In this document: positions 25,924 through 62,593 of the stretch, in pieces
Position numbering within the stretch: the stretch's first letter is position 1
How the letters are laid out: each line of letters starts with the position of its first letter
Origin: Desulfosarcina sp. BuS5
GTDB lineage: Bacteria > Desulfobacterota > Desulfobacteria > Desulfobacterales > BuS5
DNA: 64,000 nucleotides
NCBI RefSeq assembly: GCF_028752835.1
Contig: NZ_CP087952.1
Location: forward strand, 1,655,041 to 1,719,040
Direction of reading: 5' to 3'
Notes under the pieces: model-generated
What the model was told of the DNA's origin: nothing
The model's database searches: none
What the model saw: only the letters and a program-made list of their open reading frames with translations
Position numbers and translations under genes: made by a program

Positions 25924-25954
25924 TTGACATTTTATTTTAATTTCGGTATATAAT
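25924..25954 (+). promoter_or_regulatory. Promoter of the cobalamin-riboswitch operon
   Basis: TTGACA at 25924-25929 and a perfect TATAAT at 25949-25954 are 19 bp apart (TATATA at 25947 gives 17 bp). The riboswitch begins within 15 bp downstream. Confidence 0.6.
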
Positions 25955-25965
25955 TTTTTATAATT

Positions 25966-26121
25966 CAGGTGCTTTTTTAAAGATTAAAAGGGAACTCCGT
26001 TAAAGTCGGAGACGAGCCCGTCGCTGTAATCGGGGACGAACACCGTATTAATGCCACTGTCGCAATTTGATGGGAAGGCGCGGTTAGTAGGATGATCCGT
26101 AAGTCAGAAGACCTGCCTGGT
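25966..26121 (+). promoter_or_regulatory. Cobalamin (adenosylcobalamin-type) riboswitch
   Basis: The conserved elements occur in order: AGGTGC at 25967, GGGAACTCCG, GAGCCCGTCGCTGTAATCGG at about 26015, ATGCCACTG at 26051, GGGAAGGCGCG, GTAGGATGATCCGTAAGTCA and AGAAGACCTGCC. The last is the B12 box. Binding of adenosylcobalamin is known to switch off downstream expression in this class. A terminator follows at 26186, giving a transcriptional expression platform. Confidence 0.92.
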
Positions 26122-26185
26122 AATATACGCCAAACTTCGTGGACAGAAGTGCCTGGCAGGATCTATAAGGATAAAAAAGGGAATC

Positions 26186-26221
26186 CCCGGATCGATATTA
26201 TATCGGTTCGGGTTTTTTTTT
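26186..26221 (+). terminator. Riboswitch terminator
   Basis: CCCGGATCGATA and TATCGGTTCGGG form a 12-pair stem (two G-U pairs) with a three-base loop, followed by nine T. It ends 12 bp before the first gene, so ligand-bound riboswitch would stop transcription here. Confidence 0.85.
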
Positions 26222-26233
26222 GCATTATTAACA

Positions 26234-27016
26234 TTGTTTATTTCACAAAACATTTTTCAAATCGCAGTATTTTTTTATGCCGCAAGTTCTTTTCCGGCAA
26301 TAATGCAGCAAAAAAAATCTGCTCTATTTCTTTTAGGGGTTGGACTTGCAGCGAATTTATCAGCCTGCCTTGGCAAGTATTACCATGCCTGGCCCATGCT
26401 TCCCCTAAATACCGGCATGTATCTGCTTCCGCTCTGTCTGGGTGTGATATTGTTTTTGACAAAGCTCAAGAATGAGCAGTGGTCAGCCATGCTGCCTGTT
26501 CTGATCTGTCTGATGTCACTTGCGGCGCTCTTTTTCCCCAAGGACTACTACCTTCCTTTTATCATGTCCAAGACCATTTTTTCGTATATTTTTTTTGTCA
26601 GCGGAGTTATCGGCCGGAGTTTTTTTTTTATCGCTGCCCTGAAAGCATTGCAGGCGCTGATCTCTGCCAACAAGCAGGCAAAGGAGAATGGCCCGGGACG
26701 CGATGCCGGAACGGTAGAGTTTGTAGTTTGGGGCTTTGTATTCTGGACAATTTCCATGTTTGCGGGCGGAATCTGGTCATATCTGGGATGGGGCAGCCCC
26801 GTGGTTTGGGAAGATCCCGCAATTACTACTACTATGGCCACCTGGTTTTATTATACCTGCTTTCTGCATCTCTACCTGCGCCGGGTCTGGAATCTGAACA
26901 AGAGGCTTATCTTTGCTGCTGCCGGCGGAATTTTAGTTTTTATTCTTAATTGTTACCCTGAAATGGGGATATTCAGGATGCCCGATTTAAAATGGCTAAG
27001 ATGGTTAATTTTTTAA
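26234..27016 (+). CDS. CcsA/CcsB-like haem-handling membrane protein in a B12-regulated operon
   Basis: The 260-residue protein has about eight transmembrane helices and belongs to the CcsA (ResC/CcmC/CcmF) haem-handling superfamily. Its WWD-type segment is WGFVFWTISMFAGGIWSYLG, then WGSPVVWEDPAITTTMATWF with LHLYLR, near residues 166-216. In cytochrome c maturation this motif holds haem for attachment. Here the motif reads WEDP where most have WDPKE. The start TTG 26234 preserves the first helix; no strong Shine-Dalgarno sequence is seen and the next ATG is 26303. The gene is directly behind the cobalamin riboswitch and overlaps the ResB-like gene. Handling of a corrinoid or other tetrapyrrole instead of haem is inference. 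Confidence 0.8.
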   Translation: MFISQNIFQIAVFFYAASSFPAIMQQKKSALFLLGVGLAANLSACLGKYYHAWPMLPLNTGMYLLPLCLGVILFLTKLKNEQWSAMLPVLICLMSLAALFFPKDYYLPFIMSKTIFSYIFFVSGVIGRSFFFIAALKALQALISANKQAKENGPGRDAGTVEFVVWGFVFWTISMFAGGIWSYLGWGSPVVWEDPAITTTMATWFYYTCFLHLYLRRVWNLNKRLIFAAAGGILVFILNCYPEMGIFRMPDLKWLRWLIF

Positions 27017-27801
27017 AAGCAGTATGGAAGCTGGCTGGTGGCATTAATCTGACAATCGCCTTGCTTATACTCCTCGTTGTTGATTTGTCGGCCGGTTTTA
27101 TCTGTCTGGAATCTAATATCAGCATCTTTATTCCGCTCAACGATGTAGGGCTGATAGCATGGCTCGATACTTACGGAATAAATTATTTGCAATATACAGC
27201 CTGGTTTTTTTTGCTTCTATTTTTGCTGTTTTTACTGGCAGTCAATACTTTTGTGTGTACTACCGATAAAGTTATAACCCTTTTTGGAAACAGATCCTGT
27301 TATCGAAGCCAAATCAAGTTTATATTGAATTTTGCGCCCCACATTATTCATTATTCTTTTGTCGTTATCCTGGCAGGTTATCTTGTGAGCTATATCTTTG
27401 CCGTTAATCTGCCCGCCAATATCCTGTTGCCCGAAAAAAGCATACCTATTCCCGGTACGGGATATAAAATAAAACTGAATAAATTAAATATAGAATATTA
27501 TAAAGGGCAGCGGCTCGATTTTTTTCAGGATCGCGCAATCAATCCTGAAGCTGAAATATTACTGACGGATAAAAATGGAATTACCATTAAAAAAACTGTT
27601 TCTGTTAACAGGCCGGCACGGTTTAAAGGTTACAGTATCCATTTAGATGATTTTGCCCCTAAATCACGTACAGGTATGCAAAAACAGGAATATGTAAACC
27701 TTATTATTCATAGCGATCCAGGCATCCATCTTTACTTTTGCGGGATGATTATGTTTGCGGTTGGTATGCTGATGTATCTTTACCGTTTATATAGACCTTA
27801 A
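26992..27801 (+). CDS. ResB-like membrane protein (Ccs1/ResB family)
   Basis: The 269-residue product has the ResB pattern: two N-terminal helices (GGINLTIALLILLVVDLSAG and YTAWFFLLLFLLFLLAVNTF), a third (HIIHYSFVVILAGYLVSYIF), a periplasmic beta domain (GTGYKIKLNKLNIEYYKGQR; ITIKKTVSVNRPARFKGYSI) and a last helix. ResB partners CcsA in system II cytochrome c biogenesis. It overlaps the CcsA-like gene by 25 bp. No apocytochrome or thioredoxin-like partner gene is near, and it is followed by a BtuFCD set, so its use in tetrapyrrole uptake is suspected. Confidence 0.82.
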   Translation: MAKMVNFLKAVWKLAGGINLTIALLILLVVDLSAGFICLESNISIFIPLNDVGLIAWLDTYGINYLQYTAWFFLLLFLLFLLAVNTFVCTTDKVITLFGNRSCYRSQIKFILNFAPHIIHYSFVVILAGYLVSYIFAVNLPANILLPEKSIPIPGTGYKIKLNKLNIEYYKGQRLDFFQDRAINPEAEILLTDKNGITIKKTVSVNRPARFKGYSIHLDDFAPKSRTGMQKQEYVNLIIHSDPGIHLYFCGMIMFAVGMLMYLYRLYRP

Positions 27802-27831
27802 GTCTATATAAAACTTGAATGGAAAATAATA

Positions 27832-28932
27832 ATGAAAATACTACTAATTTATAAAAATATTGCGGCAGCCTTTTTGGCCTTGGTGACGATTATCCTTTTT
27901 TCAGGATGCAGCCCTTCGTTTCAATCTTTTGGTGAATTTTCAGTAAAAGAAACAGGTGAAGGTATCCATGAAATAAGAGACGGAGACGGGAGCATATTTG
28001 TGCTGGTCAGAAGAGGTAAAAAAGCTCCTGCGGGTTATAATAAAAACCGGATTATCCAGGTGCCGGTAAGACGGGTAATAGCTTATTCCACCTATAATAT
28101 TGCCATGCTGAAGGTCCTGGGTGTTCTGGATGATACACTTGTCGGGGTTACCAGGGAATATAAGGACTGGGTAATGCCTGAAGTCAGAGAAGGGTTCGAA
28201 GCCGGTAGAATCACTTATGTGGGGGAAGCCGGCGCGGTTGATTATGAAAAAATCAAGGAAATATCACCGGAGCTTGTCCTGACCTGGGACAGAGCTGCAA
28301 TTCCGATGCTTAATGAACTGGAAATTCCAGCTATTATAACCACATCCGGCACTGCCATGAATCTTGAGACCCGTTTAGGCTTTACAAGGTTTTTGGCCTA
28401 TCTGTTTGGCCGGGAAAAAGAAGCGGATGCATTCATTGCACGGGTTAATAAAACAGTGGATCAGATAAGTCAAATAACGGCTTCGGTCAGCCGGCGCCCC
28501 AAAGTTATCTGGGGCGATATTTATGAAAAAAGGGTTTTGATTGAACCTGGAAATTCATGGGTGGCGGAAATTATTCGGCATGCCGGCGGTGAATATATTT
28601 TTGATGATGTTTCAGGGGCGGCCTGAATTGAGATTACACTGGAAAAGTTTATTTCCAGCGGAATGGATGCGGATTGCCTTATCACCTACCGTTCTCCGGA
28701 AGCAGGCGCAACCTCCAAGGCTGCCATTGCACGGATAAATCCCCTTGTCGGCAAGATCAGGCCTTTAAACTCCGGGAAAGTATTTTCTCCATTGAAAAAT
28801 TATTCCCAGTCAGCCGACCGGCTGGATGAAATTATAATGGAAGTGGCGGCCATGCTCCATCCTGAACTTTTTAGGGGTTTTGACTATAAATTTTTTAAAA
28901 AACTGCCGCAAGATGCTGAAACAAATGGATAA
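27832..28932 (+). CDS. btuF: BtuF-type corrinoid/siderophore-binding lipoprotein with in-frame TGA
   Basis: The lipobox ILFSGCSPS puts the lipid-anchored Cys at residue 26. The binding-protein fold follows: VRRVIAYSTYNIAMLKVLGV, KEISPELVLTWDRAAIP, and GFTRFLAYLFGREKEADAFI. At codon 265 (28624-28626) there is a TGA, after which the same frame continues for 101 codons with good homology (ITLEKFISSGMDADCLITYR; RLDEIIMEVAAMLHPELF), giving the normal length of 366. A 7-bp hairpin follows the TGA. Either the gene carries a nonsense mutation, or the TGA is read as selenocysteine. The flanking genes are intact. Confidence 0.8.
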
Positions 28933-28933
28933 T

Positions 28934-29965
28934 ATGACACGGGAAATAATTTTTTATAACAGGAAGAGACTCTATCTCTTTTTTTCTCTCCTGCTTTTTT
29001 TCTTGATTGCTGCCGGTGGAATTAACATGACAACCGGTTCAATGAATATAAGCCTGCCTGATTTTTTTAATATTATTTTTAAACATTTTACAGGGACAAC
29101 AGAGGGGTTCATTGTCTGGAAAATAAGAATTCCAAGGGCCCTGGCATCAATCCTGGGCGGCGCTTACCTCGCTGTTGCCGGGTTGCTGCTCCAGGTTTTT
29201 TTCCGTAATCCGATTGTCGGGCCGTTTATCCTGGGGATATCATCCGGTGCGACCCTGGTTGTGTCACTTGTAATGCTGACGGCACTGGGATTTGGTATAC
29301 CGGGGTTGAACCCGTTTCTTATTACCATGGCGGCCTTTATCGGCGCAGGAGGCGCAATGCTTATTATTATGAGCATCGCCTCCAAAGTAAAAAGCGGGGT
29401 GACTTTGCTCATCGCAGGTTTGATGATCGGGTATCTTTGCCATGCTGTTACAAGTGTAATTATCGCCTTTGCGGAGGCTGAAAACGTTAAAGGCTTTACT
29501 CTGTGGCAGCTCGGCAGCTTTTCAGGATTCAAAGGATCGGAACTTAATATTATGATCTTTGCCGGAGGGATACTGCTGATTTTAGCCTTTGGATTAAGCA
29601 AGCCTTTAAACGCTTTTCTTCTGGGTGAAGAGTATGCTTGCTCCATGGGCGTTAATATAAAGCTGTTTCGGATTTTAATCCTGTTATGCTCCTGCGGGCT
29701 GGCTGGCCTTGTAACATCCTTTGCCGGACCGGTTGCATTTATCGGACTGGCGGTTCCGCATATAACCCGCCTGATTTTTTCCACTTCCGATAACAGGATT
29801 CTTATTCCGGGCGCAGTACTATTGGGAGGGGCCATAACCTGCTTCTGTGATCTGATAGCCAGATCTCTTTTTGCTCCGGTTGAACTTCCAATAAGCGCAA
29901 TTACATCTTTTTTCGGGGCGCCTATTGTCATTATCCTGCTCTTGAAAAGGAGTTCCTCCCTATGA
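28934..29965 (+). CDS. btuC: BtuC-type FecCD permease
   Basis: ATG 28934 begins one base after the btuF stop; further starts lie inside btuF. The 343-residue permease has the FecCD pattern: IRIPRALASILGGAYLAVAG near the N-terminus, FFRNPIVGPFILGISSGATL, LIAGLMIGYLCHAVTSVIIA, LWQLGSFSGF, ACSMGVNIKLFRILILLCSC, and VAFIGLAVPHITRLIF with the coupling loop. It forms the membrane channel for corrinoids or ferric complexes. It lies in the B12-riboswitch operon. Confidence 0.9.
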   Translation: MTREIIFYNRKRLYLFFSLLLFFLIAAGGINMTTGSMNISLPDFFNIIFKHFTGTTEGFIVWKIRIPRALASILGGAYLAVAGLLLQVFFRNPIVGPFILGISSGATLVVSLVMLTALGFGIPGLNPFLITMAAFIGAGGAMLIIMSIASKVKSGVTLLIAGLMIGYLCHAVTSVIIAFAEAENVKGFTLWQLGSFSGFKGSELNIMIFAGGILLILAFGLSKPLNAFLLGEEYACSMGVNIKLFRILILLCSCGLAGLVTSFAGPVAFIGLAVPHITRLIFSTSDNRILIPGAVLLGGAITCFCDLIARSLFAPVELPISAITSFFGAPIVIILLLKRSSSL

Positions 29966-31170
29966 AGAATAGCGCCCCTGTCCTTGATATTCAGAATCTG
30001 TCTGTTGGTTATAAAAATATTCCGGTTCTTAATTCGGTCAACCTGTCTTTTGGGAAAGGCATCTTTATTTCCCTTTTGGGACCTAATGGAGCCGGCAAGA
30101 CCACCCTGCTTAAAACTCTGGCCGGCTTATTGGCCCCGGTGAGAGGAAGAGTCCTGGTAAACGGAAAAGATATTGCCGACTTCAAGAGAACCGAGCTGGC
30201 CGGAATCATAGCCGTGGTTCTGACGGAAAAAGTCTCACCCGGGCTTTTCAGTGTTGTTGAATTCGTTGCTCAGGGACGCTACCCGCATACGGATTTTTTC
30301 GGGAGGCTGCAAAAAAAAGATCTGGACGTGGTCAGTTCCGCCCTGGAGATGGTTAACGCCGCAGATCTTGCTGATCGGCAGTTGGGCAGCTTAAGTGACG
30401 GTGAGCGCCAAAAAACATATCTTGCCAGGGCGCTGGCCCAGGAGCCTGAGGTGATAATTCTCGATGAACCGACCATGCATCTCGATTTAAAGCACCGTAT
30501 GGATGTGATGAGTATCCTGCGAAGAATGTGCCAAAAAAAAGGGATTACGATTATTGCCTCACTGCATGATGTCGATATTGCTTCCAAGATTTCGGATTGT
30601 GTGGCCCTGGTAAAAAACGGAGCTGTAACAGGCTGGGGTCCCCCTGAAAAGATGCTTAGCGGCAATGCCGTAGCAGATCTGTATGATTTTGACGATGCTG
30701 ATTTTAATCCTGCTTTGGGGAGTATCGAAATCCGCGGCAACGGCCGGCGGGGCAAAGTCTTTGTGGCTGCCGGCATGGGAACCGGAGCAGTATTGTACAG
30801 GCTGCTGGCCAAAAAAGGTTTCAGGATTGCAACCGGGGTCCTGCATACCAATGATCTTGATTATTACGTGGCCGGATCATTAGGAGCGGAATGTGTGGTC
30901 CAGGCCCCCATGGAACCGGTCTCCGAAGATCAGTTTAATATGGCCGCAGCATTGGTAAAGCAGGCTGATTTTATAATTGATACAGGATTCGCGGCCGGAG
31001 ATTTGAATCAAAGGAATATAGAACTTTTTAAATATGCCCTGGTGCAGAGTAAAAGGGTTATTACAATGCGCCGGCAAAGCAATGGTTTGTTTGAGGGCTT
31101 TAATTGCGAAGAATTGATTAAATGCTTCGGTGAAACTGAAATTTTGGAAAAGATGGAGCTTTTATTGTAA
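29962..31170 (+). CDS. btuD: BtuD-type ABC ATPase with extra C-terminal domain
   Basis: The 402-residue protein has a normal BtuD/FecE ATPase (residues 1-250): LLGPNGAGKTTLLKTLAGLL, LGSLSDGERQKTYLARALAQ, VIILDEPTMHLDL and ASLHDV. The signature Gly-Gly is SDGE. A second domain of about 150 residues follows: VFVAAGMGTGAVLYRLLAKK, ATGVLHTNDLDYYVAGSLGA and FIIDTGFAAGDLNQRN. This tail occurs on ATPases of some anaerobes and archaea and looks like a small nucleotide- or substrate-binding Rossmann fold of unknown function. It overlaps btuC by 4 bp. Confidence 0.88.
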   Translation: MKNSAPVLDIQNLSVGYKNIPVLNSVNLSFGKGIFISLLGPNGAGKTTLLKTLAGLLAPVRGRVLVNGKDIADFKRTELAGIIAVVLTEKVSPGLFSVVEFVAQGRYPHTDFFGRLQKKDLDVVSSALEMVNAADLADRQLGSLSDGERQKTYLARALAQEPEVIILDEPTMHLDLKHRMDVMSILRRMCQKKGITIIASLHDVDIASKISDCVALVKNGAVTGWGPPEKMLSGNAVADLYDFDDADFNPALGSIEIRGNGRRGKVFVAAGMGTGAVLYRLLAKKGFRIATGVLHTNDLDYYVAGSLGAECVVQAPMEPVSEDQFNMAAALVKQADFIIDTGFAAGDLNQRNIELFKYALVQSKRVITMRRQSNGLFEGFNCEELIKCFGETEILEKMELLL

Positions 31171-31210: not shown

Positions 31211-33310
31211 ATGGAAAAGTATTATAATAAAATTTTAGTATTAATGTTCAGTCTTTTATTTGTATTGATATTTAACTGCTCTTTGTATGCCGAAGATCAA
31301 ACAGGAAGGCAGGATACAGAAACTGTAAAAATGGAAGAAATGGTTGTCACATCCACCCGTACCGAACATAGCATGCTCGATACACCATCCAATATATCCG
31401 TTATTACCTCAAAGGATATTGCATCCATGGACGCCAAAACACTTCCTGAAGTAATAAAAAAACTCCCGGGCGCTTTTTATTCAAATGCATCCGGTCTTGA
31501 GCCCCACTTGTCCCTGCGCGGCACACGAATAGGGATGAGCGGAGGCGCTATGGTGATCCTTAACGGCATTCCGGTATCCATGGGTAAATTCGGTTATACC
31601 GACTGGGAAAGCATTCCTGTGGAAAATATCGAGCGGGTTGAAGTTGTGAAAGGACCGCTCTCGTCCCTGTATGGCGGTGATTCGGCTCGCGGTGTTATAA
31701 ACATCGTAACCAAAAAAAGTGATAAATCTGTTGCCGGAAAGGTAAGCTTTGCTGCCGGAGATTTCCATGACAGGCGTTATAATGCTTTGATCTACGGCAG
31801 CCGGGACAAATTTTTTTATAATCTTAACGCTAAAACAAGAAGATCACGCGCATACTCCAATAAATCTCAGGTGGACAATGATTACTATAATGGTGAGTTC
31901 GGTGTTTATCTGGCGGATACTGTCAGTCTTGCGTTTAATTTCAACGTGGCTGACAAGGAGCGAACCCTTGCCAGGAGACTGACTGAAGCTGAAGTAAAGG
32001 AGGATCGCAATCAGGCCACGGATTACAGTTATACTGAAAATACTGATGTTATCACAGGTCTGAATCTTAAGGTAAACCAGGATATTTTTGATTTAACCAC
32101 AACCCTTTATTACAAAAATAGGGATAAAGATTACGAAAACTATAAAATGGCAACAAAGACTCCTTACAAGGAAGAGCTGGATGAAGATGTTTTTGGCGCC
32201 AAATTTATATTTACCTTAAAACAACCCGTTGCAGGCAAACCAAACCTGCTATCCGCAGGATTTGATTATGATAATGATCAGATAGACATTGAAAATAAAA
32301 AAGCGGCTTCAAAAACTGTCGGGTTGCCATATACAATCGCTGATCCAAAAAAATCGGGTGATTTTAAAAGGGAAGAATTCGGAATCTTTTTACAGAATGA
32401 GTTTTCCGTTATTGAAAATTTAACCTTAACGGCCGGCATCCGTTATGATTATTTTGAGTATGATAATGATTCGGATTATGATTTTAGTAAAGGTGGCGCC
32501 CTGAATTATGAGGATACTCCGCATTATGACAAATGGAATCCGAGATTCGCAATAAATTACAGACCGTTAAATAATTTTAGTATTTATGGAAGCTATAATA
32601 AATCCTATCGCGCTCCCAATGTATATGATTATTATTACAGTGCGTCATATTCAGCAAAAAGCGCCTATACATTAAAGCCCGAGAAATTTGCTCAATATGA
32701 AATCGGATATAGATGGTTTTTCACAGAATGGTTCAATCTGGATATGAGTCTTTTCAGAATCGAAATTGATGACATGCTTGATACGGTTTATGATCAGGGC
32801 GGCACATATCAGGGTAAACAGAATATCAGTGAAGTCACTATCAAAGGTTTTGAAGCGGCAATTACAGGAGCGCCCTTAAAATGGCTCAGTTACAAGCTTG
32901 CCTATACCTATACGGATGCGCGTTATAAAAGTGATACTCTTGTGAAAGATGCCAATAAAAATGTGGTTTCCATTCGTGATAACAGGCTTACAAAAATCCC
33001 GTTTAATAGAGTGAGCGCTGATCTGGATACAACTTTATTTAATATTAACGGTTACAAGTTGCTCTGGAATGTCAACATGCAGTACCAGGACAAGTATAAA
33101 ATGGATAAAGCCAATGATTCGGAATATAAGGACTATACATTGTTTAATTCCAAATTAAATTTGAGCCATAAGCATTTTGATATTTTTGTTGCTGCTGAAA
33201 ATTTGTTTGACTATCAATATGACAATTATTCATATGCCAGCTATGGCAAGGATTATTTCTATCCTGCCGCCGGAGTAACCTGGTTTTGGGGAGTGGCGTA
33301 CAAGTTTTAG
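31211..33310 (+). CDS. TonB-dependent receptor, BtuB-like, end of the B12 operon
   Basis: The 699-residue receptor has a signal peptide ending LYAEDQ, a TonB box (EEMVVTSTRTE), the plug (TLPEVIKKLPGAFYSN; LRGTRIGMSGGAMVILNGIP; IERVEVVKGPLSSLYGGDSA RGVINIVTKK in two parts), and a barrel ending WGVAYKF. It follows the ATPase gene by 40 bp and has AAGGAG. Being last in the riboswitch operon, it is probably a corrinoid receptor. The leader at 31175-31193 shares 19 bases with 52505-52523 (inverted). Confidence 0.9.
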   Translation: MEKYYNKILVLMFSLLFVLIFNCSLYAEDQTGRQDTETVKMEEMVVTSTRTEHSMLDTPSNISVITSKDIASMDAKTLPEVIKKLPGAFYSNASGLEPHLSLRGTRIGMSGGAMVILNGIPVSMGKFGYTDWESIPVENIERVEVVKGPLSSLYGGDSARGVINIVTKKSDKSVAGKVSFAAGDFHDRRYNALIYGSRDKFFYNLNAKTRRSRAYSNKSQVDNDYYNGEFGVYLADTVSLAFNFNVADKERTLARRLTEAEVKEDRNQATDYSYTENTDVITGLNLKVNQDIFDLTTTLYYKNRDKDYENYKMATKTPYKEELDEDVFGAKFIFTLKQPVAGKPNLLSAGFDYDNDQIDIENKKAASKTVGLPYTIADPKKSGDFKREEFGIFLQNEFSVIENLTLTAGIRYDYFEYDNDSDYDFSKGGALNYEDTPHYDKWNPRFAINYRPLNNFSIYGSYNKSYRAPNVYDYYYSASYSAKSAYTLKPEKFAQYEIGYRWFFTEWFNLDMSLFRIEIDDMLDTVYDQGGTYQGKQNISEVTIKGFEAAITGAPLKWLSYKLAYTYTDARYKSDTLVKDANKNVVSIRDNRLTKIPFNRVSADLDTTLFNINGYKLLWNVNMQYQDKYKMDKANDSEYKDYTLFNSKLNLSHKHFDIFVAAENLFDYQYDNYSYASYGKDYFYPAAGVTWFWGVAYKF

Positions 33311-33314
33311 TTGC

Positions 33315-33740
33315 TCATGAGATGGTAGTCAGTCCAAGAGTTTTAAAATCTTTATCAAAAGAGATGGCAGGGATGTCTGCGAGTTTAGCCTTTATAAGGA
33401 TATATGAAAGGGCATCTACAAAAGAAATTTTTTTATCACCGGCAAAGAGATCGAATAATGCAATGGCCTTATGATGCTGACTTTCACTTGAGTTGAGTAT
33501 TCTGTAAAGATCAATCGACTGGTTGAACGTCAGGGCTTCAGTGTAACCGTATCTATAAAGAAGAACGGTCATGGTCTCTGAAATAATAAACCATGACGTA
33601 TAGATCAGTATTCGATATTCTTTGATCTCTTTAAAAAGTTCTAAAGCGCGTTTGTGTTTTGAGTCTTTTTTTGAAAACAGTGCAACAAAGAAGCTGGCGT
33701 CACAAAAGACAGAGTTAAAACCTTGTAATGTTTTCATCAT
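33315..33740 (-). CDS. PIN-domain toxin (VapC-like)
   Basis: With start MMKTLQGF at 33740 the protein has 141 residues and a PIN fold. VFCDASFFVALFSKKDSKHK contains the first Asp, and YTSWFIISETMTVLLYRYG holds the conserved Glu. FVDALSYILIKAKLADIPAI, then SFDKDFKTLGL give the later acidic residues. PIN toxins cleave RNA. It overlaps the antitoxin gene by 26 bp, and the module runs toward the TonB receptor from the opposite strand. Confidence 0.82.
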   Translation of the reverse strand: MMKTLQGFNSVFCDASFFVALFSKKDSKHKRALELFKEIKEYRILIYTSWFIISETMTVLLYRYGYTEALTFNQSIDLYRILNSSESQHHKAIALFDLFAGDKKISFVDALSYILIKAKLADIPAISFDKDFKTLGLTTIS

Positions 33741-33987
33741 TGTTTCCATAGAGGAGGGATTTATAATTTTCAGCAACTGATTGTGTTTTTTCTTCCGGCT
33801 CCGGCAGAGCATCAATGGATTTTAAAACAGAATCGAAATGGTCTGTGTCACCCACCAATTCGATGTTGGCGTACGGTTTGCCCCTTTTGGTAATTTGCAA
33901 AATCTGGCCGGGCTCAAGCAGATTGTGCAACCGGGTCAGTTTGGAGCGAGTCTCGCTCATACTAAGTTTTATTAAAGACTGTTTCAT
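33715..33987 (-). CDS. Phd/YefM- or VapB-type antitoxin
   Basis: The 90-residue product begins IKLSMSETRSKLTRLHNLLE and then has GQILQITKRGKPYANIELVG, the Phd/YefM-type pattern in which the N-terminal dimer binds DNA and the C-terminal tail wraps the toxin. GGAGGTT precedes the ATG at 33987. The promoter and repeated TGTACA sites lie just upstream. Confidence 0.8.
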   Translation of the reverse strand: MKQSLIKLSMSETRSKLTRLHNLLEPGQILQITKRGKPYANIELVGDTDHFDSVLKSIDALPEPEEKTQSVAENYKSLLYGNNDENITRF

Positions 33988-34235: not shown

Positions 34236-34343
34236 AACGGCACGATTGATCCGTGCAAACAAACAGTGGGTGATCCTTGTTTTGCTTGTGGAACCGTTGA
34301 TCTGCTGAATAAAGAAAGGTTTGATGTCTACGTATACCTGGGG
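34236..34343 (+). pseudogene. Remnant of a second radical SAM/SPASM gene
   Basis: The frame GTIDPCKQTVGDPCFACG, then TVDLLNKERFDV, matches residues about 260-290 of the complete gene that starts at 34324 (GTIYPCAQTVGDPCFACGTV EAPNKESFDV in two parts). DNA identity is about 80 percent, with many third-position changes, so it is an old paralogue and not a recent copy. Its end overlaps the start of the intact gene. Confidence 0.75.
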
Positions 34344-35358
34344 TAAATATCCCCGATATCTTGTGCTTTTGCTGACAACGGAATGTAATCTTCACTGTGT
34401 ATATTGCTACAGGGAAGAACGCGGCCCTGTTCAGAGCATGACCCGGGAGGTCGCTGAAAAAGGTTTGCGTCTTGCCGCTGCAACCGGACATACTTTTCAT
34501 GTGCAGTTGACAGGCGGTGAGCCCACCCTTGAACCGGAATTAATCGAATGGATTGCATCGTTTATCCGAAAAAAGAGCCTGCCCGCCACCATCGGAATCC
34601 AAACCAATGGAACCATTCTGGATGCCTCGCTGATAAGAATGTTCAAGCGTTACGACATTCAGGTGGGAGTCAGTCTGGACGGGCCCCCGGATTTTCATGA
34701 AAAACTCCGGGGGAAATCAGGCCCAACCATAAAGGGATTAAAACTTTTGTCGGATCATGATCTCCCCTTTCGGGTGACGTGCGTAGTAACAGGGCAAAAT
34801 GTAGCTGTAATGGATCGACTGGCGCTGCTTCTCGGTTTTTTTCCTACTGCCAGGGGCATTGCGTTAGATCTTCTGGTTTGCAAAGGGCATGCACTTAAAG
34901 GTGATTGTGTAAGCCCTCCGTCTCCCGCAGAACTGAAAAACGGATTAAAAAAACTGGTGCAAACATTGGGCTGGATCAATGTAAACCGTTCCCATCAGAT
35001 CAAGCTGCGGGAACTGGAATCACTAAAGCAGGCTGCCCATAAAGATAATCAGTTCCATTTCTGTCATGCGTCTAAAGGAGAAGCAATGGCAGTTCATCCG
35101 GACGGCACGATTTATCCGTGCGCGCAGACAGTGGGTGATCCCTGTTTTGCCTGCGGAACCGTTGAGGCGCCGAATAAAGAAAGTTTTGATGTATTGGGAA
35201 AATACAGCTTGCGGAGCGAACAATGTAATGATTGTTCTGTTTCCGGATTTTGTCCCGGTGATTGCCTCAGCAGGCTTTATTATAATGACGAGCAAACCCG
35301 GGGTCTGGCATGTGTTATGTATCAGACCCTATGGAAAAAATGTATCACCTGGGATTAG
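34324..35358 (+). CDS. Radical SAM protein with SPASM-like cysteine domain
   Basis: The 344-residue protein has CNLHCVYC (the CxxxCxxC 4Fe-4S motif near residue 23), TGGEPTLEPELIEW for SAM binding, IGIQTNGTIL, VGVSLDGPPDFHEK, and a C-terminal cysteine-rich part (CHASKGEAMAVHPDGTIYPC; CFACG; CNDCSVSGFCPGDC) that binds auxiliary clusters. Family members modify peptides or cofactors by radical chemistry. Close neighbours on the same strand are cobN and TonB receptors, so a cofactor or tetrapyrrole-linked role, such as radical opening or modification of a ligand, is possible. The target is not known. The start ATG 34324 is the only clear one, and it lies in the remnant of the paralogue. Confidence 0.85.
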   Translation: MSTYTWGKYPRYLVLLLTTECNLHCVYCYREERGPVQSMTREVAEKGLRLAAATGHTFHVQLTGGEPTLEPELIEWIASFIRKKSLPATIGIQTNGTILDASLIRMFKRYDIQVGVSLDGPPDFHEKLRGKSGPTIKGLKLLSDHDLPFRVTCVVTGQNVAVMDRLALLLGFFPTARGIALDLLVCKGHALKGDCVSPPSPAELKNGLKKLVQTLGWINVNRSHQIKLRELESLKQAAHKDNQFHFCHASKGEAMAVHPDGTIYPCAQTVGDPCFACGTVEAPNKESFDVLGKYSLRSEQCNDCSVSGFCPGDCLSRLYYNDEQTRGLACVMYQTLWKKCITWD

Positions 35359-35484: not shown

Positions 35485-38400
35485 ATGAAACCTTTTACCC
35501 TTTGTTATTTTACGGCTCATTCCATGGAGATTCCATCTTTGAGCGCCGGTGTGCGGCAATATGAAAAACAGTGCGGCAAAATCAGGGTTATTGCCAGGAC
35601 AGGCCGGCAGCTTTTTGATGAATCGCGCATAAAAGCCTTTGTAAAAGATGCCCTTGCGTCCGACGTTGTTCTGATCATTCTTCATGGCGGCAAGGCATCC
35701 TGCCCTGCTTTTGATCCTTTGATGGAAGCTGTTTTGAAAAAGAAAAATAACGGCGAGAAAATACCTTATTTTCATATTTATCCCCAGGGAAGTGATGAAG
35801 ACGGCCTTATTGCTGCAAAAGAGTATGACCATGATTTCGGCACAGACAGATGGGATACCTTGAACCGTTACCTGATGCACGGCGGGCGGATGAACTTTTA
35901 TAACCTCTTTTGCTATCTTTATAATTTACTGTTCCAGGATAAAGCTCCTTGTAATCCTCCGGAAACTCTTCCTCAGGAGGGGATTTATCATCCTGATTTC
36001 CAGGAAATTCCGGATCTGAAAGAGTATCTTAAAGAGAAAATAGATCCAAAAAAGATCACGGTCGGTCTCTGGTTTTATCAATCCTACTGGCTTAATGATA
36101 ACCTGCGCTACATAGACGCTGTTATCCGTGAGGTAGAACGCTGCGGAGCCAACGTTATATGCGTGTTTCATCTCAGGTATAAGGATGCTGATCGTGGTAA
36201 TCGGGGAGCTGACTATGTTGTGGAACAATTTTTTATGGAAAACGGAAAATCTGTTATAGATGTTCTGATCAGTCCCATGATGTTTTCCCTGACCCTGTCT
36301 GCGCCCGAGTATAAAGACCTGCTGCCGTGGCTGAATGTTCCTTTTATCCAGGCCATAACCACCATGAATCCTTATGCGGAATGGAAAGAGAGCCTGCAAG
36401 GGATATCCACCATGGATGTTTCCTATTCAGTGGCCCAGCCTGAATTTGACGGAGCGCTTATTACCGTGCCCGTTGCCACGCGTGAAGAAGAAGAGATTGA
36501 TCCGCTCACCGGCGCTCTTCTGTCGAAAAATATGCCGATACCCGACCGTGTTGAAAAGATGGTTTCTCTTTCTTTGAACTGGGCAAAATTACGTAAAATA
36601 AAAAATCAGGATAAGCGGATTGCCATAATTTTTCATCATTATCCACCAAGGAACGACAGGATCGGCTGCGCCGCGGGTCTGGACAGTTTTGAGAGTGTAA
36701 AGCTTCTTTTGGACAGGATGAAAAAAGAAGGCTTTCAGGTCGATCAAACCTATGAAACCGGCGATGAGCTGGCAAAGGATCTGCTCGACAGGATGACCTG
36801 TGATCAGCGCTGGCTGACATCCGACCGTATGGCAGAAAAGGCTGAAGCCCACGCGGGAAGAGATTTGTTTTTGCCATGGCACGAGGCTCTGCCTCCATCC
36901 ATAAGAAAAAAAATGACGGCAGACTGGGGCGAAATTCCCGGAGATCTTTTTGTGCATGAAGAAAAGATGCATTTTGCAGGTTTGATCAACGGCAATCTTT
37001 TTATTACCATCCAGCCACCCCGCGGTTATTTTGAAAATATAGAAAAGATTTATCATGATATGTATCTTTCCACGCCCCATCATTACCTTGCCCAATATCG
37101 GTGGATCAAGGATGTTTTTAGAGCGGATGCCGTAATGCACGTGGGCAAACACGGCTCCCTGGAATGGCTTCCCGGAAAGGCGCTGGGGCTTTCCGATGAG
37201 TGTTATCCTGATCTTGCCATCATGGATCTGCCGAATATTTATCCTTATATCATCAACGACCCGAGTGAAGGAACCCAGGCCAAACGCCGGTCTTATTGCT
37301 GCATAATCGATCATCTTACCCCTGTCTTTACCAATGCCGATCTTTATGAAGATCTGGCAAAGGTGGAAAATGTCTTGAAAGAATATGCCGACGCAAAAAT
37401 AGAGGATCCGGGGAAAATATCGATTCTTCGTTCCATGATCTGGGAGGCGGTCTGCCAGGCGGATCTTGATAAAGATCTGGAACTGGATGAAAAAGAGGCA
37501 TTTTCAGATTTTGACCTGTTTCTGGAAAAACTTCACTCTTACCTGTCTGAACTTGGGGACACCATGATCAACGATGGCCTGCATATTATGGGTAAGGCTC
37601 CGGAAAATGACCGGCTGGTGGAGTTTCTTGTGCAGCTCACCCGTCTTTCCAGCGGAGACGTCCCTTCTTTACGTGAATCTGTTCTGGGCGCTTTGGGGTA
37701 TGACTATGATGAACTTCTGGTCAATAAGGGCAGGGTACTTCCCCATTTTAAAGAACAAACCGGAGGCCGGATTATACAGAGCGCCCATGAAGCATGCCTG
37801 GAGATGGTAAAAAAGCTGGAAGAAAACCGGTTTGACACTGCCTTTATTGATACGATTGTTGAATCCTGCCTGGGCCGCAGTAATATAAATGTGGCCGCAT
37901 CTTTGAGCTACATTTGTGAAGTATTGACGCCCAATATCAGGCTGGTTACCGAGGAAATTGATTCAAGCCTTACCGGGTTTAACGGCGGGTTTGTTTTACC
38001 TGGACCATCAGGAGCGCCTACCCGTGGTCAGGCCGACATTCTGCCGACCGGGAGAAATTTTTATTCTGTCGATCCCAACAAGATTCCCACACCTGGAGCA
38101 TGGGATGTGGGTAAAAGACTTGGCAACGCCCTGATTGAAAGGTGTCTAAAAGAGACCGGAAAATATCCGGAAAACATCGGGATCATTGTCTGGGGCGGTT
38201 CCACCATGCGGAGCAAAGGTGATGATATTGCAGAAATTTACTACCTCATGGGAGTAAAGCCTGTCTGGGCCGGGGGAAGCGGAAATGTAACCGGTCTTGA
38301 GGTGATCCCCTTATCTGAACTGGGCCGCCCCCGCCTTGATGTGACGCCAAGGATCTCGGGATTTTTCCGGGATTCGTTTCCAAACCTCGTGGAGCGGATT

Positions 38401-39258
38401 GATGAGGCTGTCAGAATGGTGGCCGCGTTAAAGGAATCGCCGGAGTCGAATATTCTGCGGCGCAATGTTTTGCGGGATGTTAACAGCTATATAAAAGAGG
38501 GAATGACGGAAAAAGAGGCTATGCGAGAGGCCACATTCAGGGTATTCGGCTGTCCGCCGGGCACATACGGAGCAGGAGTCTCAGAGCTGGTTGAATCCAA
38601 AAACTGGAAGACCCGGGAAGATCTGGGGAATAACTACATCCGCTATACAGCCCACGCATACGGCAAGGGGAGCTACGGCAAGCAGAAACCGGCTGCGTTC
38701 CGCAACCTCCTTTCCCGTATGGATCTGACTGTTAAAAACGAGGATTCCCGGGAATACGACATGATGTCATGCACCGATTTTTACAACTACTACGGCGGTC
38801 TTATCGTGGCGTCAAAAACCGTGCGCGGCAAACTCCCCTTTGCCATGGTGGGCGACAGCGCCGACCCCAAAAGGGTAAAGATGCGCACCACATTTGAAGA
38901 GGCAAAGCATGTTCTGCGCTCCCGCCTTGTCAATCCCAAGTGGCTGGAGGGAATGAAACGCCACGGTTACAAAGGCGCCGGGGATATTTCCCATATGATG
39001 GATGTGGTTCTCGGCTGGGATGCCACAGCAGAAGTAATAGACGACTGGATGTACAAGAAAATTGCGGAAAAATATGCCCTTGATCCGGAAATGCAGGAAT
39101 GGATGAAGGAAGTAAATCCGTATGCTTTGCAAAACATACTGGACAAACTCCTGGAGGCGATCAGCCGGGGCATGTGGGATGCTGACAAGGAGATGGAAAA
39201 CGAGCTGCGGGAGGCATACCTGGAGATGGAAGGGGAGATTGAAGAACTTACGGAATAA
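35485..39258 (+). CDS. cobN: CobN/BchH-type metal chelatase large subunit
   Basis: The 1257-residue product has family length and pattern: IAIIFHHYPPRNDRIGCAAG LDS near residue 375, FITIQPPRGYFEN, then MHVGKHGSLEWLPGKALGLS near 553, with NDPSEGTQAKRRSY, and TRGQADILPTGRNFYSVDPN near 850. CobN inserts cobalt into hydrogenobyrinate a,c-diamide with the ATPase subunits; relatives (BchH, HmuS) insert magnesium or remove metal from haem. ChlI/ChlD-type ATPases lie downstream at 48565 and 50622. Since TonB receptors and a BtuFCD set follow directly, it may act on imported tetrapyrroles. AAGGAG precedes the start. There are remnant copies of its 3' end at 40035 and 41504. Confidence 0.9.
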   Translation: MKPFTLCYFTAHSMEIPSLSAGVRQYEKQCGKIRVIARTGRQLFDESRIKAFVKDALASDVVLIILHGGKASCPAFDPLMEAVLKKKNNGEKIPYFHIYPQGSDEDGLIAAKEYDHDFGTDRWDTLNRYLMHGGRMNFYNLFCYLYNLLFQDKAPCNPPETLPQEGIYHPDFQEIPDLKEYLKEKIDPKKITVGLWFYQSYWLNDNLRYIDAVIREVERCGANVICVFHLRYKDADRGNRGADYVVEQFFMENGKSVIDVLISPMMFSLTLSAPEYKDLLPWLNVPFIQAITTMNPYAEWKESLQGISTMDVSYSVAQPEFDGALITVPVATREEEEIDPLTGALLSKNMPIPDRVEKMVSLSLNWAKLRKIKNQDKRIAIIFHHYPPRNDRIGCAAGLDSFESVKLLLDRMKKEGFQVDQTYETGDELAKDLLDRMTCDQRWLTSDRMAEKAEAHAGRDLFLPWHEALPPSIRKKMTADWGEIPGDLFVHEEKMHFAGLINGNLFITIQPPRGYFENIEKIYHDMYLSTPHHYLAQYRWIKDVFRADAVMHVGKHGSLEWLPGKALGLSDECYPDLAIMDLPNIYPYIINDPSEGTQAKRRSYCCIIDHLTPVFTNADLYEDLAKVENVLKEYADAKIEDPGKISILRSMIWEAVCQADLDKDLELDEKEAFSDFDLFLEKLHSYLSELGDTMINDGLHIMGKAPENDRLVEFLVQLTRLSSGDVPSLRESVLGALGYDYDELLVNKGRVLPHFKEQTGGRIIQSAHEACLEMVKKLEENRFDTAFIDTIVESCLGRSNINVAASLSYICEVLTPNIRLVTEEIDSSLTGFNGGFVLPGPSGAPTRGQADILPTGRNFYSVDPNKIPTPGAWDVGKRLGNALIERCLKETGKYPENIGIIVWGGSTMRSKGDDIAEIYYLMGVKPVWAGGSGNVTGLEVIPLSELGRPRLDVTPRISGFFRDSFPNLVERIDEAVRMVAALKESPESNILRRNVLRDVNSYIKEGMTEKEAMREATFRVFGCPPGTYGAGVSELVESKNWKTREDLGNNYIRYTAHAYGKGSYGKQKPAAFRNLLSRMDLTVKNEDSREYDMMSCTDFYNYYGGLIVASKTVRGKLPFAMVGDSADPKRVKMRTTFEEAKHVLRSRLVNPKWLEGMKRHGYKGAGDISHMMDVVLGWDATAEVIDDWMYKKIAEKYALDPEMQEWMKEVNPYALQNILDKLLEAISRGMWDADKEMENELREAYLEMEGEIEELTE

Positions 39259-55777: not shown

Positions 55778-56029
55778 AGTTGGGATGCAAAGATGCAAAA
55801 ATGCCAAGTTATTTTTTATCGAGCCCTATGGGAGATTCCTTAAATCGCGCCTGGCTGATAAACTTGACTTAAGTTAAGGACTTAATTTAATTTTGATGCA
55901 CTCGTAAAAAGCTGCTTTATGCCGCTTAGCCGCATCCTATTAAATTATTTTACAAAATTACAGATATTTGTTATAAAAATATTGTAAAATATATAGCCTA
56001 TAATATTTGGGCGTTTTTTTATCTTGAGT

Positions 56030-56175
56030 TTCGTGTTGAATTAATAGGGAACCTCGTGTGAATCGGGGACGGACCCACCTCTGTAACCGGGAACGAAACC
56101 TGCAATCGGCCACTGGATAAATTCCGGGAAGGCGCAGGAAGTAGGATGATCCGGAAGTCAGAAGACCTGCTCATG
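56030..56175 (+). promoter_or_regulatory. Second cobalamin riboswitch
   Basis: Conserved parts in order: AGGGAACCTCGTGTGAATCG, GGGACGGACCCACCTCTGTA ACC, GCCACTGG at 56109, GGGAAGGCGCAGG, AGTAGGATGATCCGGAAGTC and AGAAGACCTGC. The B12 box is clear. A TATAAT-like -10 (55999-56004) precedes it. The leader lies before the TonB receptor at 56337. In 55778-56029 no gene is seen; a stretch at 55818-55880 resembles the end of the element at 1331-1486. Confidence 0.92.
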
Positions 56176-56247
56176 ATATACAGAATATAGGTTTGGTTTT
56201 TAAGGGGAATAGTAAGAACCGAACATAAGCTATCGGGTAAAGATGGG

Positions 56248-56336: not shown

Positions 56337-58442
56337 ATGTGTGGTAATTGGTTGAAAATTTTATATTTCAGCGGAGTCATCAGTACCATGATAATTGCTG
56401 ACGTCTTTGCGGGTGAGCAGGCTTATGTCATGGACGAAATGGTGGTAAGCGCCACCAAAGATGAAAAAAAAGTATTTGATGTGGCAGCGCCTATGGAGGT
56501 GGTTACATCAGGGGAAATTGAGAAAAACACACCAACAACTCCGGGACAGGTTTTACAAAGACTGCCAGGTGTTTCCATGTCAACATCGGGGATATGGACA
56601 ACCATTCCCACCGTCAGGGGATTAGGTCTGAGCCGGACACTTGTTTTGATTGATGGAGTTCGGGAAAGCAATAATATCTGGAGGCAATCAGATCCGATGG
56701 CTCCTATTATTGATATGGGAGAAATTGAAAGAATAGAAGTAATAAAAGGCCCTGCTTCGGTCTTGTATGGCACCGATGCTTTAGGGGGCGTGATAAATAT
56801 CATTACCAAAAAGCCCTCTTTTGCGCTTAAGGATGAATGGACTTTCAGCAATTCAGCGGAAGGCCTCTATTCTTCAGTTAACGAAGGCTGGTACGGCAGA
56901 TACCGCTTGAGCGGAGGCGGATACGGATTTGATTTTATGCTGAGCGCTGCGGGCCGGGACAATGATAATTATGAGGATGGCAATAGAGATGATGTAAATA
57001 ATTCACAATTTAAAAACCAGTCTTTTGATTTGAAATCCCATTATTATTTTAATCCGGATCATTTTGTAACCTTGACCATAAGGGATAATGAGATTGATGA
57101 TATGGGAGTTACGTTTAAACCGGATTCTCCTTATTTCCGTTATACCGAATATGATAACCAGACCTATAAATTAGCCTATGATGGAAAAAATATAGGTTTT
57201 TTTGATTCCATCCATTTTGATGCTTTCCATACAGAGCAGGAAAGAAGAGTTGAGGGAAAGGCCTTTTCAGATGCCAAGCCGATGTATTCTTTGAAAACAA
57301 GCCATGTTAATACACACTCAAGCGGTGTCAACATGCATAACTTTATTAATATAAAGGGAAACCAAAGGCTGCTTACAGGTTTTACTTATTCACATGAAAC
57401 ATCAAACTCAGACGAAACCTTAAAGAGCTTTAAAATTGCAAATGATGCGCAAGCACTAAATCTGGATTTTGAACCGATACCCGATGCAGAAACTGATTTG
57501 TATGGCATTTTTGCCCAGGATGAAATTTTCATTGGTGATAAAACCACCCTGACCCTTGCAGTTAGATATGATCATATTGAAACGTCCAGCAAGGACTTGC
57601 CGTTTAAAGTTGTAAAATATACCCCGGGAGGGCCTGTAGAAACATTGGATAATATTGAGGTGTCGGATGAAAAATTCGATGCATTTACTTATAATCTTGG
57701 GCTGTTATACGCATTGACCCCCAATATTCATCTTACGGCCAATGCCAACTCAGGATTCAGGGCGCCTACGATTATGGAGCTGTATGCCATCCGCTGGGGA
57801 GCAACAACGGCTTATTATGGAAACCCGGAGCTTGATCCGGAACAATCATATAATTTTGACCTTGGCGTTAAACTGAATTATCAGAGATTCAGAGGCATGT
57901 TTAATATTTATTACAATCAGGTCAAAGACCTTATAAGTGCAAAAATATTTCCCAATGACTTCTGGATGGGCAAGAAAAAAGAAATCTATATCAATATAGC
58001 CGATGCGGAACTCTATGGTTTTGAAGCTTCCTCCGAATATGATCTTCTCGAATGGATGACGCTTTTCGGCAACCTGGCCTACGTTACAGGTGAAGATACT
58101 GAGAACGATGACTATTTAATAGATATTCCGCCTTTAAATGGTTTGGCAGGTGTAAGGTTTCATTTGGAGAATGGCAAGAAAAAATACTGGCTGGAACTGG
58201 AAGCACAGATTTTTGACAAGCAGGATCACACGGCTCCCTGGGAGGATGATACAGCAGGCTATTCCGTTTTCAATATAAGAAGCGGAATGAAACTCCCTGC
58301 CGGTTATTTTGAAAATATTACCCTTACCTTAAATGTTGAAAATCTTTTTAATAAACAATATCATGAGCATCTGAAAGTGAAAGATAACCATAGTCCTTGC
58401 CCCGGCCTGAATATCCTGGCCGGCCTCAAGATTGAATTTTAA
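56337..58442 (+). CDS. TonB-dependent receptor, MCGNWLK family, copy 2, B12-regulated
   Basis: The 701-residue receptor has the start MCGNWLK, a signal sequence, TonB box (DEMVVSATKDEKK), and plug (VLQRLPGVSMSTSGIWTTIP; TVRGLGLSRTLVLIDGVRES; IERIEVIKGPASVLYGTDAL). The barrel ends AGLKIEF. It is directly behind a cobalamin riboswitch and its terminator, so it is probably a corrinoid receptor. GGAGG lies before the ATG. An FmdE-like exported protein follows 11 bp after the stop. Confidence 0.92.
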   Translation: MCGNWLKILYFSGVISTMIIADVFAGEQAYVMDEMVVSATKDEKKVFDVAAPMEVVTSGEIEKNTPTTPGQVLQRLPGVSMSTSGIWTTIPTVRGLGLSRTLVLIDGVRESNNIWRQSDPMAPIIDMGEIERIEVIKGPASVLYGTDALGGVINIITKKPSFALKDEWTFSNSAEGLYSSVNEGWYGRYRLSGGGYGFDFMLSAAGRDNDNYEDGNRDDVNNSQFKNQSFDLKSHYYFNPDHFVTLTIRDNEIDDMGVTFKPDSPYFRYTEYDNQTYKLAYDGKNIGFFDSIHFDAFHTEQERRVEGKAFSDAKPMYSLKTSHVNTHSSGVNMHNFINIKGNQRLLTGFTYSHETSNSDETLKSFKIANDAQALNLDFEPIPDAETDLYGIFAQDEIFIGDKTTLTLAVRYDHIETSSKDLPFKVVKYTPGGPVETLDNIEVSDEKFDAFTYNLGLLYALTPNIHLTANANSGFRAPTIMELYAIRWGATTAYYGNPELDPEQSYNFDLGVKLNYQRFRGMFNIYYNQVKDLISAKIFPNDFWMGKKKEIYINIADAELYGFEASSEYDLLEWMTLFGNLAYVTGEDTENDDYLIDIPPLNGLAGVRFHLENGKKKYWLELEAQIFDKQDHTAPWEDDTAGYSVFNIRSGMKLPAGYFENITLTLNVENLFNKQYHEHLKVKDNHSPCPGLNILAGLKIEF

Positions 58443-58453
58443 AAGGATTTATT

Positions 58454-59170: not shown

Positions 59171-59199
59171 CACAATTGAGGTAAAAAAAATAGAACATA

Positions 59200-61704: not shown

Positions 61705-61745
61705 ACAAAAAATAGAAAAATGGAAATAATCAGGACAAATCAATA

Positions 61746-62462: not shown

Positions 62463-62495
62463 TACTGAAAAATAGAAAAAATTGTTGATACTTGC

Positions 62496-62566
62496 AGGGG
62501 CAACCCTTGTGGTTGCCCCTTATCGCATGATTAATTTATAAAGGGCAACCACAAGGGTTGCCCCTA
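62496..62566. repeat. Inverted repeat of a palindromic 24-bp unit
   Basis: GGGGCAACCCTTGTGGTTGC at 62497 and the complementary unit at 62541-62565 form an inverted pair with 21 bp between them. Each arm is itself nearly palindromic (GGGCAACC...GGTTGCCC). Such units are scattered in genomes of sulfate reducers and probably derive from an element. It may act as a terminator for the preceding operon. Confidence 0.6.
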
Positions 62567-62593
62567 CTGACCATACAAGGTGGTAAATAAAAT

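Follow-up and report, generated by a model that had tools for sequence, protein, structure and literature searches.

A CcsA/ResB-like pair behind cobalamin riboswitches is probably a repurposed uptake component encoded next to a selenoprotein-like BtuF

What is the function of a CcsA-like and a ResB-like gene that are located behind a cobalamin riboswitch and directly in front of genes for a BtuFCD-type importer? This question is raised by a stretch of 64,000 nucleotides from the genome of Desulfosarcina sp. BuS5 (assembly GCF_028752835.1, contig NZ_CP087952.1, positions 1,655,041 to 1,719,040), which we call the window and whose own numbering is used for all coordinates; unless stated otherwise, its features lie on the plus strand. 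The order of elements is cobalamin riboswitch, terminator-like hairpin, CcsA-like gene, ResB-like gene, BtuF, BtuC and BtuD. The CcsA-like gene (26234..27016, TTG start) encodes a membrane protein of 260 amino acids, which matches PF01578 with 47.1 bits (cut-off 29.9). Its reading frame shares 25 bases with that of a short ResB-like (CcsB-like) membrane protein of 269 amino acids (26992..27801), for which a PF05140 score of 52.9 bits (cut-off 24.6) was obtained. A preliminary description of this DNA had listed this overlapping pair followed by BtuF, BtuC and BtuD, and the reading frames and domain matches bear this out. It had also stated that no apocytochrome or thioredoxin-type gene is found near the pair. 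When we scanned the stop-to-stop frames of at least 90 codons in the window, neither gene type was detected: a CxxCH motif is present in a single frame, which does not look cytochrome-like by eye, and the thioredoxin-like motif [WF]CxxC[KR] in none, in agreement with that statement. Taken together with the data given below, we consider it very probable that the pair is a dedicated, repurposed uptake component.

The preliminary description had considered that the organism might lack another ccsBA copy. This is not the case. Among three PF01578 places and two ResB loci in the BuS5 genome, we found a complete canonical pair (C1:1908478-1910606), in which a ResB frame of 463 amino acids precedes a CcsA frame of 287 amino acids. 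The third PF01578 place, a 273-amino acid frame at 1258539, groups with HemX-type rows. Twelve of 13 other genomes carrying the operon also have a CcsA scoring at least 186 bits, the exception (G284) being a genome of 77% completeness. For phylogenetic analysis, we used 84 CcsA rows, leaving out repeated loci and rows covering fewer than 200 model positions. Here, we found that all 52 operon CcsA-like proteins fall on one side of a branch with a support of 83/91 (recovery in 82% of 200 bootstrap trees). A branch of length 2.74 (support 100/100) leads to canonical CcsA and HemX together, and a second CcsA type, which is described further below, has a branch support of 100/99. The deep order of the tree is unsure because the bootstrap is not settled and long branches meet. 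A clade apart from the CcsA of cytochrome c biogenesis, which had been named beforehand as a result that would support the idea, is what the tree contains, and the NCBIfam equivalog TIGR03144 scores the window protein at 33.5 bits, below its cut-off of 187.6. The separate branch, the second canonical pair and the conserved operon under a B12 riboswitch all support the earlier idea of a repurposed pair.

Residue columns were read from an alignment to the canonical CcsA/ResB of the same genome, in which the identity of each histidine was presumed from sequence motifs. Roles of the transmembrane (TM-His) and periplasmic (P-His) histidines are given in PMC10663686. In the operon proteins, TM-His1 of CcsA (His212; 52/52) and TM-His2 of ResB (His122; 55/55) are invariant. 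ResB contains an additional histidine three residues before TM-His2 (55/55), at which the canonical copy of this genome has tyrosine and the second type serine (5/5). Cys91 of ResB is also strictly conserved (55/55), and it is present in canonical ResB as well. The periplasmic site of CcsA looks different. The P-His2 column is occupied by glycine in 52/52 operon rows versus histidine in 13/13 canonical rows, and the P-His1 column by His (40), Gln (9), Tyr (2) or Phe (1) in the 52 proteins. The middle Trp of the WWD motif is replaced by Val, Ile or Met in all 52 proteins, each outer Trp being kept in 51 of them, and the Asp of a loop with the pattern FPxDxYLP is invariant (52/52). The motif WEDP, which had been highlighted for the window gene, is indeed present there; in the wider family, the aligned second letter is mostly D (40/52) and in 5/52 E. 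A structure model of the window CcsA (predicted local distance difference test score, pLDDT, 87.0) was closest to CcsBA (7s9y; Z 19.2 over 244 residues, root mean square deviation 3.6), followed by CcmF (6zmq; Z 18.6) and 7s9z (10.3); all further folds reached 8.5 or less. Judged from the residues, the membrane core is kept and the cytochrome-attachment site is lost. The glycine at P-His2 and the altered WWD motif argue against an ordinary cytochrome c synthase. Either heme or a corrinoid might be accommodated at the altered periplasmic site.

The arrangement is conserved well beyond this organism. When ResB was searched in 291 genomes of the order, 44 gave a match at E <= 1e-4, and 18 places with 35-100% identity were classed as close relatives. 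BtuF adjoins 17 of these 18, the exception (L054) being a ResB-like fragment without a BtuF match. In 14/14 loci with a complete CcsA (the window and L038-L050), an RF00174 match lies upstream on the same strand, at a distance of at most 0.3 kb in nine and of about 3.8-6.1 kb in L040, L041, L042, L045 and L046; of these, L041 and L042 have a second CobN or TonB receptors between riboswitch and CcsA. A BtuF-anchored search of GTDB genomes then defined 63 loci, several of them contigs of the order set, which are the named loci of all counts below. Most come from Desulfobacter-type, Desulfobulbus-type and 'Deltaproteobacteria' records; the outliers are one Desulfohalobiaceae, one Candidatus Adiutrix, four alphaproteobacterial, four Accumulibacter and two Spirochaetes loci. 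Culturable, non-pathogenic carriers include Desulfobulbus rhabdoformis DSM 8777 (L106) and Desulfocicer vacuolatum DSM 3385 (L133). More than 1.9 kb of upstream sequence is available for 52 of the 63; of the other 11, eight show ResB and three have no upstream DNA. CcsA and ResB directly precede BtuF in 50/52 (49 by script, L139 by reading). In L139 (3588-5615), ResB-like and BtuF-like sequences were read by eye in one unbroken frame, possibly a natural fusion. Riboswitches were scored with model R1, which was built from 19 Rfam hits, one of them (L052) odd, and which replaced a regular-expression search that had missed several Rfam matches. With R1, 44/52 named loci were found to have a same-strand riboswitch upstream, which is at most 0.4 kb from the CcsA frame in 28 and farther away in 14; the other two loci lack the pair (L103 and L144). 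Finally, 395 genomes of the phylum were searched with CcsA as anchor. At E <= 1e-20, this gave 37 places, distributed over 36 genomes, of which 14 are linked to BtuF, namely all 13 scoring at least 171 bits and one at 100 bits. No BtuF was found beside eight places that score 93-146 bits and 15 that score 76-88 bits within the stretches fetched, some of which end at contig ends. Five of eleven BtuF-linked loci from L190 to L200 have an upstream riboswitch. Thus, ccsA/resB genes behind cobalamin riboswitches, for which a search across genomes had been suggested, are recurrent and share one operon with BtuFCD.

In the window, the riboswitch aptamer (25951..26134) matches RF00174 with 110.6 bits (E 7.8e-27, gathering score 31.5). 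A terminator-like hairpin with a T run (26186..26221; 12 pairs, six of them G-C, and nine T) lies between the aptamer and the first gene. The hairpin proper (26186-26212) is also present in the single-strand fold, and between 25820 and 26300 there are two terminator-like sites, one per strand, as compared with a shuffle mean of 0.6. A riboswitch and a terminator ahead of the CcsA-like gene had been read before, and the Rfam match and the hairpin scan confirm both. The promoter named together with them was not confirmed: the hexamers TTGACA (25924-25929) and TATAAT (25949-25954) exist, but they are 19 bases apart and were left unscored by a scan that accepts spacings of 16-18 and listed no plus-strand promoter for the region. 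The Rfam riboswitch match begins within the second hexamer.

The BtuF-type gene behind the pair (27832..28932) encodes a lipoprotein-like binding protein, and its Peripla_BP_2 match (63.7 bits; alignment A1) supports the earlier assignment. It had, however, been taken as one plain open reading frame, and an in-frame TGA at 28624..28626 had been overlooked; with this codon read as selenocysteine (Sec265), the protein has 366 amino acids. Gene callers split BtuF in two at this TGA. In all 63 named loci, the corresponding codon is TGA (9) or a cysteine codon (TGC 37, TGT 17), a restriction that is partly built in because one of the two BtuF search patterns held the cysteine; two further TGA codons occupy the column in L190 and L194. 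Glycine is found at position -3 of the column in 63/63 named loci, and thus a CxxU motif is not present. Downstream of the TGA, we found a hairpin with the general shape of bacterial selenocysteine insertion sequence (SECIS) elements (28639..28658), which starts at base 16, with the T of the TGA as base 1, and forms 7/8 pairs in the window. The ten TGA genes inspected all form 7-8 of the 8 pairs, whereas the 54 Cys genes form 4.3 on average, with three of them reaching 7. In alignment A3, 96.3% of the hairpin cells pair (92.6% in shuffles), but the number of pairs with changes on both sides does not clearly exceed the shuffled level, which was as high in 39 of 500 cases. When folded singly, the sequences gave z-scores of -0.25 to -2.39, only a slight advantage over shuffles, and a different fold is preferred in L100 and L154. 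A search for the selenocysteine machinery, which covered SelB, detected this factor in the BuS5 genome (65.8 bits) and in five of six TGA-type genomes; it is missing in the incomplete genome G284. A second cysteine immediately preceding the helix that begins at residue 178 is present in 49/54 Cys-type proteins (24 by pattern, 25 by eye), and Sec-type BtuF has Asp or Asn there in 9/9 cases and Cys in 0/9. From these sequence features, BtuF looks like a selenoprotein. A pseudogene was rejected as explanation: the stop occurs at the same codon in distant relatives, it is always TGA, and the frame behind it is conserved. In L127 (5140-7745), we observed a tandem pair of BtuF-type proteins, each of which has a cysteine at the Sec/Cys column. 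The structure model of BtuF (pLDDT 88.2) adopts a FecB/CeuE-like fold with Z-values up to 21.9, and a profile search of solved structures gave five weak matches, the best being 4ovk (E 3.5e-10). Corrinoid binding by BtuF is putative and suggested by the gene context.

The remaining parts of the system follow downstream. A BtuC-type permease (28880..29965; FecCD 252.9 bits), the true start of which is uncertain and may lie inside this frame, finds its best NCBIfam match in the BtuC model (195.3 bits, cut-off 334). The BtuD-type ATPase with a C-terminal extension (29962..31170; ABC_tran 102 bits) matches best a corrinoid ABC ATPase (232.4 bits, cut-off 537). A TonB-dependent receptor (31211..33310; PF00593 176.9 bits), which scores below cut-off with the siderophore (193.6), heme (190.7) and B12 (163.9) models, probably belongs to the same operon as BtuFCD. 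Farther downstream are a radical SAM protein (34321..35358; PF04055 76 bits, nearest to the PapB maturase with 112.2 bits, cut-off 340) and a CobN-type chelatase subunit (35485..39258; TIGR02257 971.7, cut-off 822.05; BchH TIGR02025 827.9, just below its cut-off of 829). The CobN gene is often in the same operon in relatives elsewhere and the radical SAM gene in some relatives. We dropped the latter as an essential part, as otherwise complete operons lack it (e.g. L040, L044-L047). The TonB receptor is separated from the radical SAM gene by two small overlapping reading frames on the minus strand (33315-33987), toxin-antitoxin-like by eye, which may mark a break in the operon. Additional CobN-like genes were seen near the operon in L041 (3990-7715, between riboswitch and CcsA) and in L106 (3601-7398, minus strand). 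CbiD is present in 14/17 operon genomes and a CbiK match in 15/17 (14 over cut-off), which makes it unlikely that CobN is the chelatase of de novo synthesis. The BuS5 genome has both, and here too CobN probably does not serve this pathway.

How might the pair work? The in-frame TGA of BtuF changes the likely mechanism, and for our preferred explanation, a heme b electron conduit serving a Sec/Cys corrinoid binder, we estimate a probability of roughly one in three. The pair would be a repurposed CcsB-CcsA branch serving a single corrinoid-type import system, which consists of the TonB receptor, the Sec/Cys-type BtuF, BtuCD and CobN and which cobalamin would switch off. A b-type heme may be bound between both membrane histidines and the pair would then act as transmembrane electron conduit, modeled on CcmF, which according to PMC10663686 has been proposed to reduce periplasmic heme via a membrane heme. 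At the periplasmic BtuF, which would grip the cobalt through Sec265 or Cys, the pair would reduce either the Co(III) corrinoid or the selenol/thiol. Reduction to Co(II) would loosen the bond between cobalt and Sec/Cys, the cargo would pass to BtuCD and CobN would subsequently act on the imported ring. More broadly, we tentatively propose that a CcsB-CcsA complex was rebuilt to act as membrane partner in a corrinoid importer with a selenoprotein: BtuF would place a selenolate or thiolate on the cobalt, and CcsA-ResB, through its heme or by taking a corrinoid into its own periplasmic site, might reduce the corrinoid or take it over.

A number of observations weigh against the electron conduit. 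By fold, the BtuF model comes closest to binders of metal chelates, for example YiuA and CeuE, and the best 50 fold matches listed for it do not include E. coli BtuF. Sec265 lies opposite Trp196 of E. coli BtuF only in a weak alignment (probability 16.6). In NCBIfam, the window BtuF obtains its top matches with heme/iron models, far below cut-off, and the Cys-type BtuF of L040 obtains none. P-His1 is a tyrosine in the window protein, and the histidines were identified via sequence motifs and an alignment to one canonical pair. L103 and L144 (2/52) combine riboswitch and BtuF without CcsA/ResB, which suggests that the pair is not always needed. Moreover, 8/52 named loci have no riboswitch in the upstream DNA examined, in agreement with Rfam; in two of them (L145, L150), a riboswitch is found downstream only.

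A different possibility, which we regard as doubtful, sharpens the earlier idea that the pair binds a corrinoid or flips it across the membrane: the altered WWD-like site of CcsA itself would hold the corrinoid, contacted at one face by P-His1 and at the other, in place of P-His2, by the Sec/Cys of BtuF, so that the cargo is handed over between BtuF and the pair on its way to BtuC. Such a hand-over is consistent with the selective loss of the second ligand alone (52/52), the outer tryptophans (51/52 each) and the His at P-His1 in 40/52 being retained, and with the strict gene order next to BtuF and the single ResB-BtuF frame of L139. On the other hand, P-His1 is Gln in nine proteins, Tyr in two including that of the window, and Phe in one, and with BtuCD present for transport, a second translocator is not required. 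No member of the CcsA/WWD superfamily is known to us to bind a corrinoid.

It is rather unlikely that the cargo is cobalt or another metal chelate, in which case the operon would be a cobalamin-repressed cobalt supply with CobN as cobaltochelatase and the pair would reduce the metal for release. This explanation fits the nearest folds of the BtuF model, with Z-values of 21.9 for YiuA, 21.1 for a molybdate binder, about 19.5 for CeuE and 19.4 for Ni-bound CeuE of H. pylori. A soft metal would be well matched by Sec/Cys, and CobN exceeds its cobaltochelatase cut-off. However, BtuC and BtuD match B12/corrinoid models best, albeit below cut-off, and the CbiK of the genome inserts cobalt early in the pathway, which would render CobN redundant for de novo synthesis. 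Improbable, to a higher degree, is a role restricted to keeping the Cys pair or the Sec of BtuF reduced, with the cargo untouched. The distribution of the second cysteine (49/54 Cys-type, 0/9 Sec-type) is as for a redox pair versus a single selenol, and Cys91 of ResB is invariant (55/55), but this residue is no special sign as canonical ResB has it, and the window frames scanned above lack a thioredoxin-like motif. An ordinary System II cytochrome c synthase located in the operon by chance, with which the PF01578 and PF05140 matches over cut-off and the CcsBA-like fold would be compatible, was rejected as most improbable on the grounds of the separate branch, the loss of P-His2 in 52/52, the altered WWD motif, the low TIGR03144 score, the canonical pair elsewhere and the lack of a nearby cytochrome.

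When we compared the operon with known systems, the pair resembled CcsB-CcsA of System II (7s9y/7s9z) in the CcsA fold, both membrane histidines and the two-gene ResB/CcsA layout. It differs in the lost P-His2, the altered WWD motif, its neighbors and its separate branch, and its ResB is shorter (269 versus 463 amino acids in the canonical copy). CcmF, second-best fold for the CcsA model, is a single protein of 589 residues in 6zmq and belongs to System I of cytochrome c maturation; no gene link to it exists here. With BtuFCD importers, the operon shares the FecCD permease, the ATPase, the Peripla_BP_2 protein and the cobalamin riboswitch, but its BtuF has Sec/Cys at a fixed column, and BtuF, BtuC and BtuD reach no NCBIfam cut-off among the matches listed. 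A 'Cobalamin-binding protein BtuF, CxxU' appears as predicted selenoprotein in PMC9312934 and PMC13188914; judged from the motif given there, this BtuF-type protein, for which Sec is likewise predicted, is set apart from ours by its motif, our proteins having Gly at -3. HmuS, a relative of CobN encoded in hmu operons, takes iron out of heme (PMC12583661), and operon-2 of Dehalobacter combines a corrinoid-type ABC importer, CbiZ, CobN and Mg-chelatase subunits (PMC4285132). Both operons thus join tetrapyrrole uptake genes with a CobN-type chelatase, and the accessible descriptions mention neither a CcsA/ResB pair nor a Sec-containing BtuF. Among the papers listed, which were judged from titles and abstract openings and include few from subscription journals, we found none tying CcsA/ResB to B12 uptake. 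The conserved use of a cytochrome-maturation-type complex together with a Sec/Cys B12-type binder was not found in the literature searched.

If our explanation is true, a membrane machine of cytochrome maturation has gained a second job in metal-cofactor uptake, which would explain annotated ccsA/resB genes without a cytochrome nearby and would bring selenium chemistry onto the import path of B12. To our knowledge, it would be the first case in which a member of the WWD/CcsA superfamily acts on a corrinoid instead of making cytochromes, and the first direct contact between cobalt and selenium in a transporter. As the membrane heme site survives and the cytochrome-attachment site is lost, the electron-conduit role of this superfamily site becomes testable here.

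The second CcsA/ResB type adjoins TonB receptors and, in several loci, also proteins with a molybdopterin-binding domain. In none of the eight loci L055-L062 was a cobalamin riboswitch found. BtuC- and BtuD-like genes are added in L055, L062 and L209. The molybdopterin-binding (SUOX-like) proteins have an N-terminal hydrophobic stretch, and related ones occur in L056, L057, L060, L206, L207 and L209; in L202 (2103-3890) and L205 (2112-3908), the SUOX-like protein runs on into a tetrapyrrole-methylase domain, which is odd for an apparently exported protein. In Bacteroides thetaiotaomicron, a locus that contains two 'CcsA' genes goes up when iron is limiting (PMC10434189). CcsA/ResB pairs may thus have been recruited repeatedly for metal-complex uptake.

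Two further regions of the window contain uptake-type genes. Between 43497 and 51659, we observed a second TonB receptor, a Peripla_BP_2 gene and permease- and ATPase-like reading frames (named by reading), which are followed by an AAA+VWA ChlD-like and a ChlI-like gene; the two latter proteins are possible partners of CobN. A second cobalamin riboswitch (56009-56188, 107.7 bits) precedes a group of genes (56337-63583) in which a TonB receptor is followed by two FmdE-domain proteins and ABC-like reading frames. Among these ABC-like frames lies a transposase-like one (60410-61564), recognized by reading only.

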